In this document: piece after piece, positions 17,618 through 24,129 of the stretch
How positions within the stretch are numbered: position 1 is the first letter of the stretch
Layout: every line of letters begins with the position of its first letter
Virus record (IMG/VR): IMGVR_UViG_3300037193_000610
Span: 1-24,221 of that record
DNA length: 24,221 nt
Direction: 5' to 3' (one strand)
Source of the DNA: a virus
Made by a program: the position numbers and the translations under genes
Notes under the pieces: model-generated
What the model saw: only the letters and a program-made list of their open reading frames with translations
What the model was told of the DNA's origin: nothing
The model's database searches: none

Positions 17618-17851
17618 ATGCCGGCAGCCTCCACATCTACACAACCCTGCATAGAGAAACGCAACCATGTATGCGATTTCTCTGACTGTCCTTGCAGACC
17701 ACAGCCAAAGTATAGAACACTATCCGAAGAGATGACACGCGGTCGTTTCCAAAATCAAAGACTAATCTACAAGCCGGTAGTAATGCCGGCCAGAGATAGG
17801 ATGTACTTCGAAGAGGGGATGACGCGATTCGCGAAGGAGGTAAAGAGATGA
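17618..17851 (+). CDS. Small cysteine-rich protein opening the late operon
   Basis: A 77-residue product with CDFSDCPCRPQP near residue 20, several more basic residues, and a helical end. The four cysteines (one earlier at QPC) could bind zinc. Its TGA overlaps the terminase small subunit ATG by 4 bases, which supports translation; the start at 17618 is the first ATG available. Function unknown; placement suggests a packaging or late regulatory accessory. Confidence 0.65.
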   Translation: MPAASTSTQPCIEKRNHVCDFSDCPCRPQPKYRTLSEEMTRGRFQNQRLIYKPVVMPARDRMYFEEGMTRFAKEVKR

Positions 17852-18315
17852 GCACCGGCGCACCTTCAATATTCACTCAAGAGATAGCGGATAAGATCTG
17901 TGAGGAATTAGCTACATCCTCAAAAAGCCTCAGAACAATATGCAAGGAAGACAATATGCCATCTGTCCGCACAGTATTGTATTGGCTTTCACAGGGAGAG
18001 AAAGAAGATGCTAAACCGGAGTTGCGCGATTTCCTGCACCAGTACGCGCGCGCGCGCGAGGCACAGGCCGACCACCTGGTCGAAGAGATCATAGAGATAG
18101 CCGACGATGGTAGCAATGACCTGATGACTATCACAAAGGGCGACATCAGTTATGAGCAGGAGAACAAAGAAGTCACAAACAGGTCAAAACTAAGGGTTGA
18201 GGCCCGTAAGTGGATTGCCAGTAAATTAAAGCCAAAGAAGTACGGGGATAAGGTAGACCTGAATCACGGCGGCGAGATAGCCGTCAAACAGATTACAGGT
18301 ATGGAGGTAAAGTGA
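17848..18315 (+). CDS. Terminase small subunit
   Basis: The 155-residue protein has an N-terminal HTH (IFTQEIADKICEELATSSKS, LRTICKEDNMPSVRTVLYWL), a helical middle (HQYARAREAQADHLVEEIIEIADD) and the ending RKWIASKLKPKKYGDKVDLNHGG, all typical of small terminases, which recognise pac or cos DNA and load the motor. A good ribosome site (AAGGAGG) lies 9 bases before the ATG. The gene overlaps both neighbours by 4 bases. Confidence 0.9.
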   Translation: MSTGAPSIFTQEIADKICEELATSSKSLRTICKEDNMPSVRTVLYWLSQGEKEDAKPELRDFLHQYARAREAQADHLVEEIIEIADDGSNDLMTITKGDISYEQENKEVTNRSKLRVEARKWIASKLKPKKYGDKVDLNHGGEIAVKQITGMEVK

Positions 18316-19673
18316 AACTTGTATTTGAAACCCACGGTAACGAAAGGCAGAAGGAGGTTTGCAGGTATTGGATCGATCCGGAGGTGTTCGATATTGTTTA
18401 CGGTGGTTCGAAAGGATCCGGTAAAAGCTATTTAGGATGTTCTTTGATATTCGGGGATGCGTTAACCTATCCAGGTACGCATTACTTTATTGCTAGGAAG
18501 AAACTCAATGATCTTCGAAAGTTCACACTGCCATCGATTTATGAGGTCTTCAAAGATTGGGGATTGACGTCGGAGTATTACAAGTTCAACGCTACCGATA
18601 ACGTCTTCACGCTTTACAATGGCTCAAAGGTCTTTCTGTTGGAAGCGGCATATCAACCGAGTGATCCGCTTTACATGCGGTTCGGCTCGATGCAAATGAC
18701 ACGGGGATGGATTGAAGAGGCCGGAGAGTTCGACGTTGCTGCAAAGAACAATTTAGCAGCGAGTATCGGGCGATGGATGAACGAAGTTTACAATCTCCCT
18801 GCTAAACTGCTTCAGACCTGTAACCCTGCAAAGAATTATCTGTATCGAGAGTATTACAAGAAATTCAAAGACGGGACTTTAGAGAAGTGGAGACGTTTTG
18901 TCCAGGCGTTACCGCAGGATAACAAAAAGCTGCCAAAAGACTACATCGAGCATTTAAAGCGGACGTTATCGAAAAACGAGATCCTCCGTCTTGTATTTGG
19001 CAACTGGGAGTACGACGATGACCCGGCAACACTGTGTGAGTATGCGAATATCTGCAACATCTTCACCAATAAGTTTGTGTCAGGCGGGACGCGATACATT
19101 ACTGCCGACATAGCCAGGATGGGTAAAGACAGCACCACAGCGCGGGTTTGGGACGGATGGAGGGTGGTCGAGCGGGTCCAGCGAAAGAAGTTGAGGATCG
19201 ACGAATCCGCGGAACTGATCAGGGATTTAGCCAACAAGCACAGTATACCGATGAGTAACACGATAGTAGACGAGGGAGGTGTAGGCGGCGGCGTGGTGGA
19301 CATACTTAGGTGTGTGGGATTTGTGTCAAATGCCCGGCCTTTGCCAACAGGGGAATACGACGCAAACGGAAAGGAGATAGTTGACAACTACGACATGCTT
19401 AAAAGCCAGTGCGGGTTTAAGCTGGCCGAACGGATAAACGCGAACGAGGTGTACGAAGAATGTTCAGCAGAAGTTCAGGATTTAATCACCGAACAACTGG
19501 AACAGCTAAAGCAGAAAGCGGTAAATTCGGATATGAAAAAAGGATTGATGCCAAAAGAGGAAATCATTGCGATGATTGGTTATTCCCCGGATGACATGGA
19601 CACCTATATCATGCGCGCGTACTTCGATATTCAGAAACCATTAACAGCACCAGTTTTAACATTCCATAGATGA
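18312..19673 (+). CDS. terL: Terminase large subunit
   Basis: A 453-residue packaging motor starting at GTG 18312 after GGAGGTAAA, with the stop of the small subunit overlapping (GTGA). Walker A is GGSKGSGKS (31-39), Walker B RGWIEEAGEF (E135/E136), the C-motif-like LQTCNPAKN, and the C-terminal RNase H-like nuclease has D266 in ITADIARMGKDS and a second Asp in TIVDEGGVGGG near 319. These are the expected ATPase and DNA-cutting sites. The length is standard. Strand, order and context show the start of the late operon. Confidence 0.96.
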   Translation: MKLVFETHGNERQKEVCRYWIDPEVFDIVYGGSKGSGKSYLGCSLIFGDALTYPGTHYFIARKKLNDLRKFTLPSIYEVFKDWGLTSEYYKFNATDNVFTLYNGSKVFLLEAAYQPSDPLYMRFGSMQMTRGWIEEAGEFDVAAKNNLAASIGRWMNEVYNLPAKLLQTCNPAKNYLYREYYKKFKDGTLEKWRRFVQALPQDNKKLPKDYIEHLKRTLSKNEILRLVFGNWEYDDDPATLCEYANICNIFTNKFVSGGTRYITADIARMGKDSTTARVWDGWRVVERVQRKKLRIDESAELIRDLANKHSIPMSNTIVDEGGVGGGVVDILRCVGFVSNARPLPTGEYDANGKEIVDNYDMLKSQCGFKLAERINANEVYEECSAEVQDLITEQLEQLKQKAVNSDMKKGLMPKEEIIAMIGYSPDDMDTYIMRAYFDIQKPLTAPVLTFHR

Positions 19674-20425
19674 GGTTAACAATAAGACTACCGCACAAGA
19701 CAGAATACGGCAACATCCCGGTATGCTGGGATCAGGTTACATGGAGGCAGTTCATGCAGCTGGCCGAGGCCAAAGACAGGATTCAGGAGCTGGCTATAGT
19801 AACCAATCTGGACGAAGGACTGATCAGAAGGGCGATAGAGATCAAAGGACTCGATCACGCGATGTCTGTTATATCCTTCCTTCGCAGGCCATGCCCGACT
19901 TTTGTTCCTCACAAAATACTGTTCTATCCCCTGCCTAAAGACCTTGGATTTGAAACAGTAGCTCAATATGAGGACATCCGGTCAACACTGGAGAAGCTGA
20001 AAGACGAAAAGGACCAGCAGAAAATCCTTGCCCAGTACCCATACTTCGTCGCTGTCTATGCCTGTAAGCACATGAGCCGGGAGCGTTGTGAGGCGTTAAG
20101 AGAATCAACCGGGAACGATGAAATCAAGTATGGTGAATATCACTGGCAGAAAGCCGAAGCGATGGTAGAGGACTTTATGAACAGCCCGGCCCCGGAGGTG
20201 CTTGGCATCGGAAATTTTATCATGGTAAAATTCTGGAGCTTGAACATGGGCATCAATCTGGCCTCCCTCAGAACTCTTACACCAGCGAAGAGATTGAAGC
20301 TGGTTATCAAAAGATGGGTGTTGCGTTTGGATTTAAAGGAACGCTTCATTGGATTGCTAAAGAGACTGGGGAAAGCACTGAAGCTTTACAACGATGGAGC
20401 GCCTACAAGTTCCATCACACAGTAA
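19670..20425 (+). CDS. Tail-assembly-chaperone-like protein, zero-frame form
   Basis: A 251-residue protein that overlaps terL by 4 bases. The N-terminal pattern (PVCWDQVTWRQFMQLAEA, LAIVTNLDEGLIRRAIEIKG, MSVISFLRRP) and the middle (PKDLGFETVAQYEDIRSTLE, YPYFVAVYACK, HWQKAEAMVEDFMNSPAPEV) fit a family of Bacteroidota phage proteins that I associate with tail assembly chaperones, like lambda gpG. After about residue 183 the zero frame becomes a simple L/K/R-rich tail (AKRLKLVIKRWVLRLDLKER). At 20212-20218 there is an in-phase slippery heptamer and the -1 frame stays open. The chaperone identity is inference; coding of the first 183 residues is firm. Confidence 0.7.
   Translation: MRLTIRLPHKTEYGNIPVCWDQVTWRQFMQLAEAKDRIQELAIVTNLDEGLIRRAIEIKGLDHAMSVISFLRRPCPTFVPHKILFYPLPKDLGFETVAQYEDIRSTLEKLKDEKDQQKILAQYPYFVAVYACKHMSRERCEALRESTGNDEIKYGEYHWQKAEAMVEDFMNSPAPEVLGIGNFIMVKFWSLNMGINLASLRTLTPAKRLKLVIKRWVLRLDLKERFIGLLKRLGKALKLYNDGAPTSSITQ
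20212..20218 (+). other. Candidate -1 ribosomal frameshift site A_AAT_TTT
   Basis: Bases AAATTTT fall in the phase X_XXY_YYZ of the 19670 frame (GGA AAT TTT). Tandem slippage would re-pair on AAA and TTT and continue TAT CAT GGT in the -1 frame, which has no stop for 91 codons. The zero-frame codons at the site (Asn, Phe) and the position late in a tail-chaperone-like gene match the known use of frameshifting in lambda G/GT. Confidence 0.65.
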
Positions 20426-20493
20426 GGTTCTTTGCATGGTCAGGGTATACACAGAAAAGGTATCATGAGATAATGAGTGATAAGAATAAATGA
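20218..20493 (+). CDS. -1 frame extension (gpGT-like), ends TGA 20491-20493
   Basis: After the slip the -1 frame reads 91 codons: YHGKILELEHGHQSGLPQNS, then YTSEEIEAGYQKMGVAFGFK, a core TGESTEALQRWSAYKFHHTV and the end SGYTQKRYHEIMSDKNK. Amino acid use is balanced and natural, unlike the zero-frame tail. Up to the ATG at 20314 no ATG, GTG or TTG occurs in this frame after the preceding stop, so an independent start would miss the coherent EEIEAGY part. The stop overlaps the next ATG (ATGA, 20490-20493), as for coupled genes. Fusion would be 274 residues. Confidence 0.6.
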   Translation, partial: YHGKILELEHGHQSGLPQNSYTSEEIEAGYQKMGVAFGFKGTLHWIAKETGESTEALQRWSAYKFHHTVRFFAWSGYTQKRYHEIMSDKNK

Positions 20494-20654
20494 TGCACGA
20501 TAGTAATATATATGAAGTTTGCAGGGCGTCGGCATTTTTCGAGAGCGTGACAGCTGGCCCATTTAGGTATTTAGTCTATCGTGCTATGTGGTCAGCTATG
20601 CTGTCTCAATATGTTGATTTGACTAAGTTGGGCGAAGAATCAGGAGACTTATGA
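20490..20654 (+). CDS. Small unknown late protein (54 residues)
   Basis: Starts at ATG 20490 in an ATGA with the -1 frame stop and ends at TGA 20652-20654 in an ATGA with the next gene. The product begins MMHDSNIYEVCRASAFFESV and continues with YRAMWSAMLSQYVDL. Two precise overlaps support translation. It is helical with a mildly hydrophobic centre. No family known. Confidence 0.7.
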   Translation: MMHDSNIYEVCRASAFFESVTAGPFRYLVYRAMWSAMLSQYVDLTKLGEESGDL

Positions 20655-20905
20655 CACCACTTGAAAAAGAAATAGCGTACAATATTTCAGTTAAATGGCT
20701 GTTCGGTTCTGACGGAGCAGGCAAAATGGGGCAAGACGATTTGGATATAGTTACAAAAGCCGCTGCCTCGGTAGCTAAGAAGTATATCGAGAAGGCGTAT
20801 AAGGGAGCGTGGAATCGGACCATGCAGGGCCATCAAAAGCGACCTTATAATTATCAACAAGAACAGTTTTTAAACGAGTGGCTTAAAGAAAACGGAGTGA
20901 TATGA
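20651..20905 (+). CDS. Unknown small late protein
   Basis: An 84-residue product (MTPLEKEIAYNISVKWLFGS, then IVTKAAASVAKKYIEKAYKG and QQEQFLNEWLKENGVI). It is helical and basic. It overlaps both neighbouring genes by 4 bases. No recognised domain; the position within the tail-like block suggests a structural or chaperone role. Confidence 0.7.
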   Translation: MTPLEKEIAYNISVKWLFGSDGAGKMGQDDLDIVTKAAASVAKKYIEKAYKGAWNRTMQGHQKRPYNYQQEQFLNEWLKENGVI

Positions 20906-21552
20906 TAGAAGTAACATTTAAATCGCAATTCATACCTGTTGACTTCGCTATGAAGTTATTTGGATTATCTAGGTCTTATCTTTACAAGCTAAGACAGAAG
21001 GGGAAAATAAATCATTATCACGTAGGGGCAAGAACATTTGTTAGTATAACTGAAATAGAAGCCCTGATAGCGAAGTCAATAGATAAAAATTTTGAATCAG
21101 AAGCCAAAAAACCAGCCCCGACACAGGAGCCAATACTTGATAAAGCGCTTCAAGACGGCTTCAAAGAAATGGCAGAAGCTTTTGAAATCATAGAGAACAT
21201 CATAATATGTCATGCCTGTAATAATCCTGCATATAAACTACCACCCGATGCCGATCGGTTGACTGAGTTACGATTCAAGGCGCTCAAAGACAAGCCGATA
21301 TTACATTTTTGTAGGGACTGCAAATCTTACTTGCAGAGAAACGACGGCGGAACTATGCCGAACATTCAGCCGATCATCGATAGTGGAAATTATGAATTAT
21401 TAGCAGCCGAAATCTTAGTACGAAAAATCAATAACTATGGAAAAAATAAAAAACGTAGACGCCCTGCGTCAAGATCTACTGACAGCGTACAGCCAATTGA
21501 GAGCAGGCAAGATGGAATTAAAGGAGGCCAAACAAGTGGCGTTAATGGCTAA
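20902..21552 (+). CDS. HTH and zinc-knuckle protein within the late operon
   Basis: A 216-residue protein. Residues about 10-58 form an excisionase/MerR-type HTH_17 winged segment (FAMKLFGLSRSYLYKLRQKG, then NHYHVGARTFVSITEIEALI). A helical linker follows, then CHACNNPAY and HFCRDCKSY, two CxxC pairs spaced for one zinc. The end from about 190 is basic and low in complexity (KNKKRRRPASRSTDSV), where the frame overlaps the next gene by 116 bases. It probably binds nucleic acid; a late-gene regulator is one idea. The C-terminal 35 residues may be an incidental extension. Confidence 0.7.
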   Translation: MIEVTFKSQFIPVDFAMKLFGLSRSYLYKLRQKGKINHYHVGARTFVSITEIEALIAKSIDKNFESEAKKPAPTQEPILDKALQDGFKEMAEAFEIIENIIICHACNNPAYKLPPDADRLTELRFKALKDKPILHFCRDCKSYLQRNDGGTMPNIQPIIDSGNYELLAAEILVRKINNYGKNKKRRRPASRSTDSVQPIESRQDGIKGGQTSGVNG

Positions 21553-21637
21553 CACCATTATTTCATCCGCAAAAGTTCAGGTTAAGTACAATGAAATAAC
21601 ACAGTCATCAGCAAAGATTGACTTTCTGGAGTCATGA
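21437..21637 (+). CDS. Small helical late protein
   Basis: A 66-residue product (MEKIKNVDALRQDLLTAYSQ, then AGKMELKEAKQVALMANTII) with a clear amphipathic helical pattern. It overlaps the end of the previous gene by 116 bases in another frame and its stop overlaps the next ATG by 4 bases. The natural helical composition supports this frame. Family of short phage proteins with no named function. Confidence 0.75.
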   Translation: MEKIKNVDALRQDLLTAYSQLRAGKMELKEAKQVALMANTIISSAKVQVKYNEITQSSAKIDFLES

Positions 21638-22071
21638 AACGCACCGAGGTAAAGACATTCATACAGGCAGGGATCAACGCTCTCAATGACGGCATAGCCT
21701 ACGGCACCGGGCGCATTTCAGAGTTTAACTCAAACCGCGTCCTATCCTATCCTCATATCTGGATGGAGCCGTTAGAAGTGGATGGGGATATACCAAACAA
21801 TGTTCCCCAAGATGATTGGGTTGTGACCTTGCATATAGCGAAGAAAGACAGACCAGACAGCGATCCGGATGAATATGAATTACTAGTCGATCAGTGTGAT
21901 GAAGTAGCACAGGAATTGATTCACAAGTACAATAACATTGTTAATAGTTATAAAACAGTCACTATTAAAGGGTACAACCGAGTCCCTGAAATAAAGAAAA
22001 ATGCTGACTGCTTAACAGGTGTAAGATTAAGATTCACTATAAACGCGCCGGATACGGCGAACTGGTGTTGA
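21634..22071 (+). CDS. Head-tail or tail completion-like protein
   Basis: A 145-residue protein with YPHIWMEPLEVDGDI, DDWVVTLHIAKKDRPDSDPD, YELLVDQCDEVAQELI and GVRLRFTINAPDTANWC. The alternation of strands and one helix, and the size, suit the gpU-like tail terminator or completion fold; the pattern of a W-V-x-LHIA strand followed by a CDEVAQELI helix recurs in Bacteroidota phages. GGAG is placed 5 bases before ATG. Function is inferred from fold guess and operon order. Confidence 0.65.
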   Translation: MKRTEVKTFIQAGINALNDGIAYGTGRISEFNSNRVLSYPHIWMEPLEVDGDIPNNVPQDDWVVTLHIAKKDRPDSDPDEYELLVDQCDEVAQELIHKYNNIVNSYKTVTIKGYNRVPEIKKNADCLTGVRLRFTINAPDTANWC

Positions 22072-22280: not shown

Positions 22281-22766
22281 ATGGAAGGCAACGAACTCAT
22301 AAGGAACACACTCACCCGCTACGGCAACCTCGGCGTTGAAGGCTTAAAGAACGACGTTCAGAAGGTTTCCGCAACAGGTAAGACAGCCGAGTCTATCCGT
22401 TATGAAGTGCAGTATAAGGATCAGCAATGGGCATTAACATTCATCGGGCGGTCTTTCTTCAAAGCCTTAGAGACAGGTAGAGGCCCGAGGACATCCGACG
22501 AGGATCACAACTTCAAATCCAACATGCTGGAGTATATGAAAGCCCGTGGCATTGGAGCAGACTTGGACGAAAAGAAAAGAGAAGCATTGGCGCGGTACCT
22601 GGTTCTTAAAATAAACCGGGAAGGCGATTCAACATATAAGAAGGGAGGGCGTATAGTTTATTCAGCCACGCTTAGTAAATTAGTGGACGAATTAATAAAC
22701 GCCCTCAAAAAAGATGTAGTTAACCAATACATAAAAGAAAACATTAGAGAAGTTAAAGCTGCCTGA
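22281..22766 (+). CDS. HK97 gp10-like head-tail/tail protein
   Basis: A 161-residue protein. GLKNDVQKVSATGKTAESIR, YEVQYKDQQWALTFIGRSFF and KALETGRGPR make the pattern of the HK97 gp10 (tail completion or head-tail joining) family: helix, GKTAxSI strand, then FFxALETGRGPR. The C-terminal half is helical and basic. It starts immediately after the previous stop. Role: joining of tail to head or stabilising the tail tube. Confidence 0.75.
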   Translation: MEGNELIRNTLTRYGNLGVEGLKNDVQKVSATGKTAESIRYEVQYKDQQWALTFIGRSFFKALETGRGPRTSDEDHNFKSNMLEYMKARGIGADLDEKKREALARYLVLKINREGDSTYKKGGRIVYSATLSKLVDELINALKKDVVNQYIKENIREVKAA

Positions 22767-22797: not shown

Positions 22798-24129
22798 ATG
22801 GCAGTAAGCGTTTTAACACGTCCATTATCATTCGTTTTAGACCCCACACCGATAGCCTGCTTTATTGGCAATGATGGCACCGGAAAGGCCCTCGTCACTA
22901 AAACAACTCACGGACTCACAGACGGGGATTACATTTACCTCAAAAGCTACGTAGAAGATTATTGCGGTTTCTGGTATGTGGACGTCATCTCTGCCGATAC
23001 CTTCAAACTTCTGGCTTATGCCGGGGCAACCGCACAGAACTACCTTTCCAATGACCTTGACGCGGACTATTACGAGAACACCCGCAGCACATCATACCCC
23101 GGCTGGAACTGCGCCCACCTGCCGATAGTCTACGAGTTATCAAACACCCTATGGCCTACCAACTCAGCGGACACTATCAGGGATATATCATCAGTAAGTG
23201 ATTCTAACGGGTATTGCCAGATCACACCAGCAGGAGATATTAAAGCTACCGGAAGCGCGGCTAAGTTAGAGTTCGTAAAGATCACAGGAGCATCAGACGA
23301 TACGCTTAACGGGGTTTATCAAATCATCAGTTATACATCCGACACAAACTTCGTGATCGACCTCGTCTATTCATCAACAATAGATACTGACCTCACAAAC
23401 AACGCCTCGATTCAGTATTACTACAACAACTATTGCATAAAGGCTAAGGTGTACGGCGGCATCCCTTCCGGGCATGAATTTGAGGATTTAAGACCGATAG
23501 AAGAAATAGAAGAGCTGAAACTGATTCCTGACTCTGATAACAAGGTAAAGTTCTCGATTCACGAGCTGGTACTTTCCCAGTTGAAAACCCGCAACAACGC
23601 GCTACTGGGAACCCTGCCGAACAACATCGACTTCTGGACTCAGTTCTACATCACCTACGCGGAATCCTACGATGATTCGAACGGAACAACATTAAGCACA
23701 ACCACCACCTCGTACACAGATGATAGCGCCACCTTCAAAGGGTTTGCAGTAAACGCGCTGCTGCCATTTAAAAACGTCTTTTCAGGATCTCTTTCAGAAT
23801 ACATTATGACAAGAAATACAGCGAAGTTTTTAACCCTGTTCACCCTTCCGGTGTTCTTCTCCGGGTGTGATCATGAGGTATGCGGGATAGTGCCGGGGAA
23901 CAGCGACACGCTAAGCATGCAATTCAACAACAACTCGTTTGCTTCAGACCTGAGTAACTGGGAGCAGAGTGAGAACGGCGGCGCTGCGTGGTCACAGAGC
24001 GGAGGTCAGGCGGTGGCATCATCAGGTAGTTTGTATTACACTAAAGTGCTGTTCCAGCAAAGACAGGACACAAGTTTACACTGGCCTGCGGGCAACTACA
24101 AGATAGACTTCGTTGTCACCAATAACTAA
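22798..24129 (+). CDS. Large tail or surface protein, interrupted by TAA at 24127
   Basis: A 443-residue, T/S/D/Y-rich protein. It begins with KTTHGLTDGDYIYLKSYVED, a beta-rich motif (HGLxDGDYVY..SYVxDYxGFWYVDV) found in Bacteroidota phage tail proteins, then an L/I-strand-rich middle. From about residue 385 a jelly-roll-like region (SFASDLSNWEQSENGGAAWS, HWPAGNYKIDFVVTNN) starts, as in carbohydrate-binding modules. The stop falls inside this module and the same frame continues as natural sequence beyond it. So the true protein is probably longer, and the stop a mutation, an error or a readthrough site. Identity as tail/adsorption protein is inference. Confidence 0.7.
   Translation: MAVSVLTRPLSFVLDPTPIACFIGNDGTGKALVTKTTHGLTDGDYIYLKSYVEDYCGFWYVDVISADTFKLLAYAGATAQNYLSNDLDADYYENTRSTSYPGWNCAHLPIVYELSNTLWPTNSADTIRDISSVSDSNGYCQITPAGDIKATGSAAKLEFVKITGASDDTLNGVYQIISYTSDTNFVIDLVYSSTIDTDLTNNASIQYYYNNYCIKAKVYGGIPSGHEFEDLRPIEEIEELKLIPDSDNKVKFSIHELVLSQLKTRNNALLGTLPNNIDFWTQFYITYAESYDDSNGTTLSTTTTSYTDDSATFKGFAVNALLPFKNVFSGSLSEYIMTRNTAKFLTLFTLPVFFSGCDHEVCGIVPGNSDTLSMQFNNNSFASDLSNWEQSENGGAAWSQSGGQAVASSGSLYYTKVLFQQRQDTSLHWPAGNYKIDFVVTNN

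Follow-up and report, generated by a model that had tools for sequence, protein, structure and literature searches.

A conserved -1 frameshift gene with a dual-coding tail beside the phage terminase, and an internal Shine-Dalgarno-like element as its candidate stimulator

Analysis of a viral DNA of 24,221 nucleotides (the complete stretch analysed, hereafter the window; IMG/VR record IMGVR_UViG_3300037193_000610) revealed, directly after the gene for the large terminase subunit (TerL), a gene in which -1 frameshifting is, judging from the sequences of its relatives, almost certainly a real and conserved coding signal. The full reading, in which the two products form a tail chaperone pair comparable to G/GT of lambda and the slip is stimulated by an internal Shine-Dalgarno (SD) element, is considered likely. 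It is supported by the conserved frames, the slippery heptamer, a GGAGGT element at fixed spacing, hairpin covariation on two null models, and gene order. Points that weigh against SD stimulation include a spacing of 12 nt, slightly outside the range known from Escherichia coli, and a relative (L094) that keeps the element ahead of G_AGT_TTT. The features are listed in Table 1.

The preliminary description of this DNA had proposed a programmed -1 frameshift at AAATTTT, and its reading of the site was borne out. The heptamer lies in the exact X_XXY_YYZ phase of the frame starting at 19670, where the zero-frame codons are GGA AAT TTT, and the -1 frame remains open for 91 codons until the TGA at 20491-20493. 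The product sizes given there, 251 and 274 residues (183+91 for the fusion), are correct. It had also seen no usable start before the coherent part of the -1 frame; in agreement, ATG, GTG and TTG are all absent from that frame between the upstream stop, 27 codons 5' of the slip, and 30 codons 3' of it, the first start codon being located at 20314. The stop overlaps the start of the next open reading frame (ORF) in ATGA (20490-20493), as had been noticed, and this arrangement is shared by 11 of the 22 non-redundant members of the family. At its other end, the start of the 19670 ORF overlaps the 3' end of the TerL gene. The seventh codon, for leucine, is the rare CTA in 10 of 17 relatives, against a gene-wide frequency of 0.13, a synonymous bias near the start.

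Table 1. Features of the frameshift gene and its surroundings, in window coordinates
Feature	Position	Strand	Remarks
TerL	18312..19673	+	Immediately 5' of the 19670 gene; PHROG terminase large subunit, E 7e-23; Pfam Terminase_3
Zero-frame gene, 251 aa	19670..20425	+	Residues 1-183 form the N domain common to both predicted products, followed by a 68-aa tail; conserved in relatives
Predicted hairpin with GGAGGT in loop	20185..20205	+	Arms 20185-20190 and 20200-20205; 5/6 pairs in the window, including one G-U
GGAGGT, internal SD-like element	20194..20199	+	12 nt 5' of the heptamer; in 22/22
Slippery heptamer A_AAT_TTT	20212..20218	+	Zero-frame codons AAT TTT; identical in 20/22 non-redundant members
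-1 frame extension, 91 codons and stop	20218..20493	+	C-terminal domain of the predicted 274-aa fusion; HMM and BLAST matches in the -1 frame of relatives; alignment of 21 sequences; helical model
Zero-frame tail overlapping the -1 extension (dual-coding)	20219..20425	+	Zero stops in 21/21; similarity 13 SD above null
Next ORF, 54 aa	20490..20654	+	Start shares ATGA with the -1 stop
Conserved operon gene, about 147 aa, unnamed	21634..22071	+	41-43% identity in L002, L006 and L041
Conserved gene, about 155-165 aa, unnamed	22281..22766	+	48-54% identity in L002, L006 and L041

When the 251-aa protein was used as a direct query, no relative was found in viral contigs or phage records. Relatives were reached via the terminase, with 80 loci retrieved, and a profile of the N part then added further close ones. 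The family set consists of the window plus 21 relatives found by protein similarity, 22 non-identical sequences in all; the searches behind it used back-translated degenerate patterns that do not select GAG over GAA. Kinship among the sequences inflates every conservation test, an effect that is limited since most pairs share less than 62% DNA identity. Three of the terminase-linked loci (L002, L006 and L041) carry after TerL a gene in which the -1 part is set back by exactly one frame relative to the N part, with an identical GGAAATTTTA. In the window, extra small genes (20490-21637) separate the frameshift gene from the conserved 21634 gene; their products are 54, 84, 216 and 66 aa long, the 216-aa one having an HTH_17 domain. 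At this place the same three loci have other short genes or none.

The string GGA-AAT-TTT is identical in 20 of the 22 non-redundant members at only about 25-40% protein identity to the window. Such recurrence, together with conservation of the -1 frame, is far beyond chance, and the alignment of homologues thus supports programmed frameshifting, as both the heptamer and the -1 extension are retained. The two exceptions are L101, with a T-run (T_TTT_TTT) one codon further on, and L094. The latter, with G_AGT_TTT at L094:4492-4498, retains GGAGGT and a perfect hairpin, and may have a weak shift site or slip at the P site alone. Loci in a wider terminase-linked set carry the same gene, with T_TTT_TTT at the equivalent point and a -1 extension of about 81-105 codons after it. 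A test of synonymous constraint on 38 conserved columns ranked G181, E176, F183 and N182 highest; three of these four codons (G181, N182 and F183) make up the slip site, and the fourth belongs to GGAGGT, so that the strongest constraint in the gene falls on these two elements. In a distant pair, L034 and L036, the N part and the -1 part are joined in one frame as a natural fusion, which speaks for a functional fusion protein and does not refute the shift. The join, of an N-type and a -1 domain in a single frame of 161 aa, lies at L036:7773-8258 (also in L034), in a phage whose terminase is related.

The GGAGGT element, its hairpin and the dual-coding tail go beyond what the preliminary description had observed. 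GGAGGT is a perfect SD core, always exactly 12 nt from the slip site and written in the reading frame as xxG GAG GTx. Glutamate 176 is encoded by GAG in 22/22 sequences against a gene-wide GAG frequency of 0.45 (p=2e-8). The preceding residue varies widely (P, S, G, V, T, Q, E, M, K), while its codon always ends in G, for which the product probability on gene codon usage is about 7e-12. GGAGGT is therefore held by codon choice; sequences later retrieved with the GGAGGT pattern itself were left out of this test. Among relatives with a T-run, the element is lost in L120 and L121 and kept in L101 and L123, which suggests, on small numbers, an order of change. In none of 24 sequences does it precede a conserved start codon that it could serve. 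Across these phages generally, SD motifs occur in 10.6% of start regions vs 12.3% inside genes, so there is no enrichment, and the start regions are A-rich, a combination usual in Bacteroidota. Further copies of GGAGGT were seen at 17836-17841 and 18303-18308, 6 and 3 bases before the starts of TerS (17848) and TerL (18312); the TerL start was located in three relatives, with GGAGGT nearby in L006 and not in L002 or L041. The motif also stands 12 nt 5' of A_AAT_TTT_TTT in a distant relative that has an N domain of its own (L161:5806-5830, and L130 on the minus strand, with the slip ending at 822 on the reverse complement), possibly an independent or an ancestral use of the element.

The six bases on either side of NNN-GGAGGT are able to pair, in combinations that change together: GCCATG/CATGGC, GCCAGC/GCTGGC, GCCATC/GATGGC, GCCAAG/CTTGGC and GTCAAG/CTTGGC. 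Arms of CCAAGC/GCTTGG, with the register shifted by one base, occur where residue 179 is glycine. The predicted fold of the window is the hairpin of Table 1 plus one extra pair (20184-20206), and its stem, like those of L006 and L041, is weaker than in other members. Over 27 sequences, 83.3% of cells were paired vs 69.6 +/- 2.2 after shuffling, and the covariation score was 0.326 vs 0.151 +/- 0.024, a value reached by 0/500 shuffles and falling to <=0.094 when the arms were slid by 1-3 columns. Under a null that preserves the peptide (codons redrawn from gene usage, 2,000 draws), 3.30 +/- 0.14 pairs were expected, with a maximum of 3.80, and 5.31 were observed. Five of the 27 sequences had been found with the GGAGGT pattern, without selection on the arms, with the exception of L123, found by its -1 domain. 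RNAalifold alone did not return the 5' hairpin as the consensus and gave a weak 3-pair alternative instead; the call rests on the pair counts, the same-peptide null and single-sequence folds. It was downstream of the slip that a stimulatory hairpin had been envisaged, and none was detected there: the downstream region of the window folds no more stably than its shuffles, and neither do the 75 nt downstream in the 22 members (mean z +0.08). As far as simple folds go, a 3' hairpin or pseudoknot is rejected. The GGAGGT motif within the small hairpin before the slip, kept in all close relatives, probably drives the slip.

Past the slip, family members keep the zero frame open for 41-71 codons, most of them for 57. 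In its first 52 columns no stop occurs in any of 21 sequences, whereas synonymous shuffles of the -1 frame give 14.4 (minimum 8 in 400). Zero-frame similarity amounts to 1.126 BLOSUM per site vs 0.600 +/- 0.040 in the null, and for pairs below 55% DNA identity to 0.96 vs 0.47 +/- 0.04. The absent stops and the excess similarity indicate that both tails are under selection, and about 50-60 codons thus appear, from these sequence comparisons, to be read in two frames. The AlphaFold2 model of the 251-aa product has a mean pLDDT of 88.6, with a confident N domain (about 90-98) and, in the tail behind it, a long helix of lower certainty (48-80); the -1 part is modelled as helical.

The identification of the pair as tail assembly chaperones of the G/GT type derives by analogy from architecture and gene order. 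In long-tailed phages, the hallmark of tail chaperones is a mainly helical protein made in two forms through a -1 shift and encoded 5' of the tape measure gene. Chaperones of the lambda G/GT type bind the tape measure and the major tail proteins and are absent from the virion, and their gene usually, though not universally, lies directly upstream of the tape measure gene. The closest known pair is gpG/gpGT of lambda itself (Xu, Hendrix and Duda 2004; reviewed in PMC5009743). Like it, the window gene belongs to a late morphogenesis operon, 5' of the tape measure gene, and would slip at an X_XXY_YYZ heptamer in its 3' part to give products with a common N domain. Unlike it, the window gene comes immediately after TerL, with several genes between it and the tape measure gene; it has an upstream SD and hairpin; its zero-frame product runs 68 aa past the slip in conserved, dual-coded sequence, while that of lambda ends soon after; and there is no detectable similarity in sequence or fold. 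The lambda pattern is a -1 shift, 5' of the tape measure gene, from which one shorter and one longer product result (PMC5009743).

Gene order was followed furthest in L083, where TerS, TerL and the frameshift gene are succeeded by genes of 147 + 155 aa, 355 + 701 aa and 714 aa and then by the tape measure gene (phrog_1506, E 1e-20), about five genes 3' of the frameshift gene and not adjacent to it; a ClpP-type head protease follows, and the portal much later. The window ends before the tape measure gene. Gene order is similar in the cultured Nonlabens (Persicivirga) phage P12024S (NC_018271), which carries a Neck1-like gene and a weak match to a tape measure; its gp42, similar in size and place to the 22281 gene, matches phrog_5, the tail completion/Neck1 family (E 4e-4). 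Also directly after TerL, P12024S gp38 meets a T-run heptamer at 23579, and an 81-codon -1 extension takes in the annotated gp39. These two, annotated as separate hypothetical genes, look like one frameshift gene (L198, 23136-23830). The protein gp38 matches the window model structurally; it differs in a shorter N domain and in lacking GGAGGT.

The earlier designation of the gene as tail-chaperone-like accordingly draws on architecture and gene order: neither the N domain, the fusion end nor 22 homologues match a chaperone in Pfam or PHROG, with one distant homologue reaching Phage_TAC_7 below the cut-off (E 0.013), and several genes separate the frameshift gene from the tape measure gene downstream of it. 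Fold searches, which covered PDB and BFVD for the N domain and BFVD for the -1 domain, gave no PDB match for the N domain, and in BFVD it matched only unnamed phage proteins. The position after TerL instead of before the tape measure gene, and the lack of a family or fold match, would also suit two frameshift products with another task, such as head-tail joining or scaffold-like factors. This alternative is considered unlikely, given the chaperone hallmark of a two-form, mainly helical protein upstream of the tape measure; the intervening genes also look tail-related in P12024S. From the sequences and their arrangement we infer a useful shift efficiency, stimulation by GGAGGT and the chaperone identity.

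In the favoured mechanism, most ribosomes would stay in frame and make the 251-aa protein, whereas at A_AAT_TTT a fraction would have its P- and A-site tRNAs re-pair with AAA TTT, one base back, and would continue in the -1 frame to the 274-aa form; the two proteins would share the 183-residue N domain and differ in their ends. GGAGGT would pair with the anti-SD of the same ribosome, paused at the slip site, and pull it back. The hairpin might control the availability of GGAGGT, hiding it from other ribosomes and freeing it when melted by the translating one; alternatively, it could compete with SD pairing and set the product ratio. The two products would then act in tail assembly as gpG and gpGT do. 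On E. coli ribosomes an SD 8-11 nt upstream stimulates -1 shifting, and upstream hairpins close to the slip site can dampen it (PMC6321510). As in E. coli dnaX and IS911, an internal SD-like element lies a short way 5' of a -1 heptamer (PMC6321510, PMC5009743). In contrast to these, the window lacks a 3' stem-loop, its SD occupies the loop of a covarying 5' hairpin, the heptamer is A_AAT_TTT vs A_AAA_AAG at a spacing of 12 nt vs 8-11, and the hosts of the phage probably hide their anti-SD. The ribosomes of Bacteroidia sequester their anti-SD by means of bS21, bS18 and bS6 and do not use it for most starts (PMC9976891). Even so, a perfect SD-like element for the +1 shift in prfB is kept there in 72% of genomes (PMC8710568). 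Both elements are perfect and within coding sequence in bacteria without SD initiation; that of prfB serves a +1 shift at a stop codon and is adjacent to it, vs a -1 shift 12 nt away in the window.

GGAGGT and its hairpin might instead be unconnected with an otherwise genuine frameshift, as a packaging (pac/cos) DNA site, a protein operator or a mask against internal initiation. The element adjoins the terminase genes, and in the window GGAGGT also precedes the starts of TerS and TerL. Its spacing to the slip is nevertheless invariant in 22/22, it is gone in L120 and L121, whose slippery T-run is longer, and the compensatory changes fit pairing in RNA, all of which makes such a role rather improbable. 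The T-runs could also be explained by transcriptional slippage; A_AAT_TTT is not easily accommodated in this way.

An independent gene in the -1 frame, or one reached by re-initiation, is very improbable. It could draw on the separate annotation of gp39 in P12024S and on a -1-frame ATG 10 codons before the slip in 9/24 sequences. This ATG is a by-product of the hairpin arm CCATG and lies 5' of GGAGGT, which therefore cannot serve it. No start is conserved among the 24 sequences, of which the window and 7 others have none at all from the -1 stop 5' of the slip to a point 30 codons beyond it; moreover, the heptamer is constrained at silent sites, and -1 conservation begins exactly at the slip. 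A sequencing indel or pseudogene, for which nothing was found in favour, can practically be dismissed: the frame switch falls at the same codon in 21 independent relatives, and none of the family has a single continuous frame across 20218.

Scanning of genome contigs for relatives of the frameshift gene found none, so that the host assignment rests on the kin of TerL, the integrase family and the A-rich starts without SD enrichment; on these grounds the host is very probably a member of Bacteroidota. No report of the arrangement was found in the literature searched, with most subscription papers outside the search. The more specific picture is of a family of Bacteroidota phages using an SD core in a hairpin loop as a 5'-only stimulator of -1 shifting, on ribosomes whose anti-SD is thought to be sequestered, to feed about 57-70 codons of two selected tails. 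It is put forward tentatively, with slightly more doubt than belief.

If true, this would be a second, unrelated SD-like case beside prfB in Bacteroidia, here for -1 shifting. The family offers natural variants that lack GGAGGT as well as naturally occurring compensatory changes in the hairpin, and the question of whether a hidden anti-SD can act during elongation becomes directly testable. The finding would add a selected dual-coding stretch to the G/GT theme, and would supply a candidate function for many unnamed genes beside TerL in Bacteroidota phages, whose -1 part is split off or missed in annotation.
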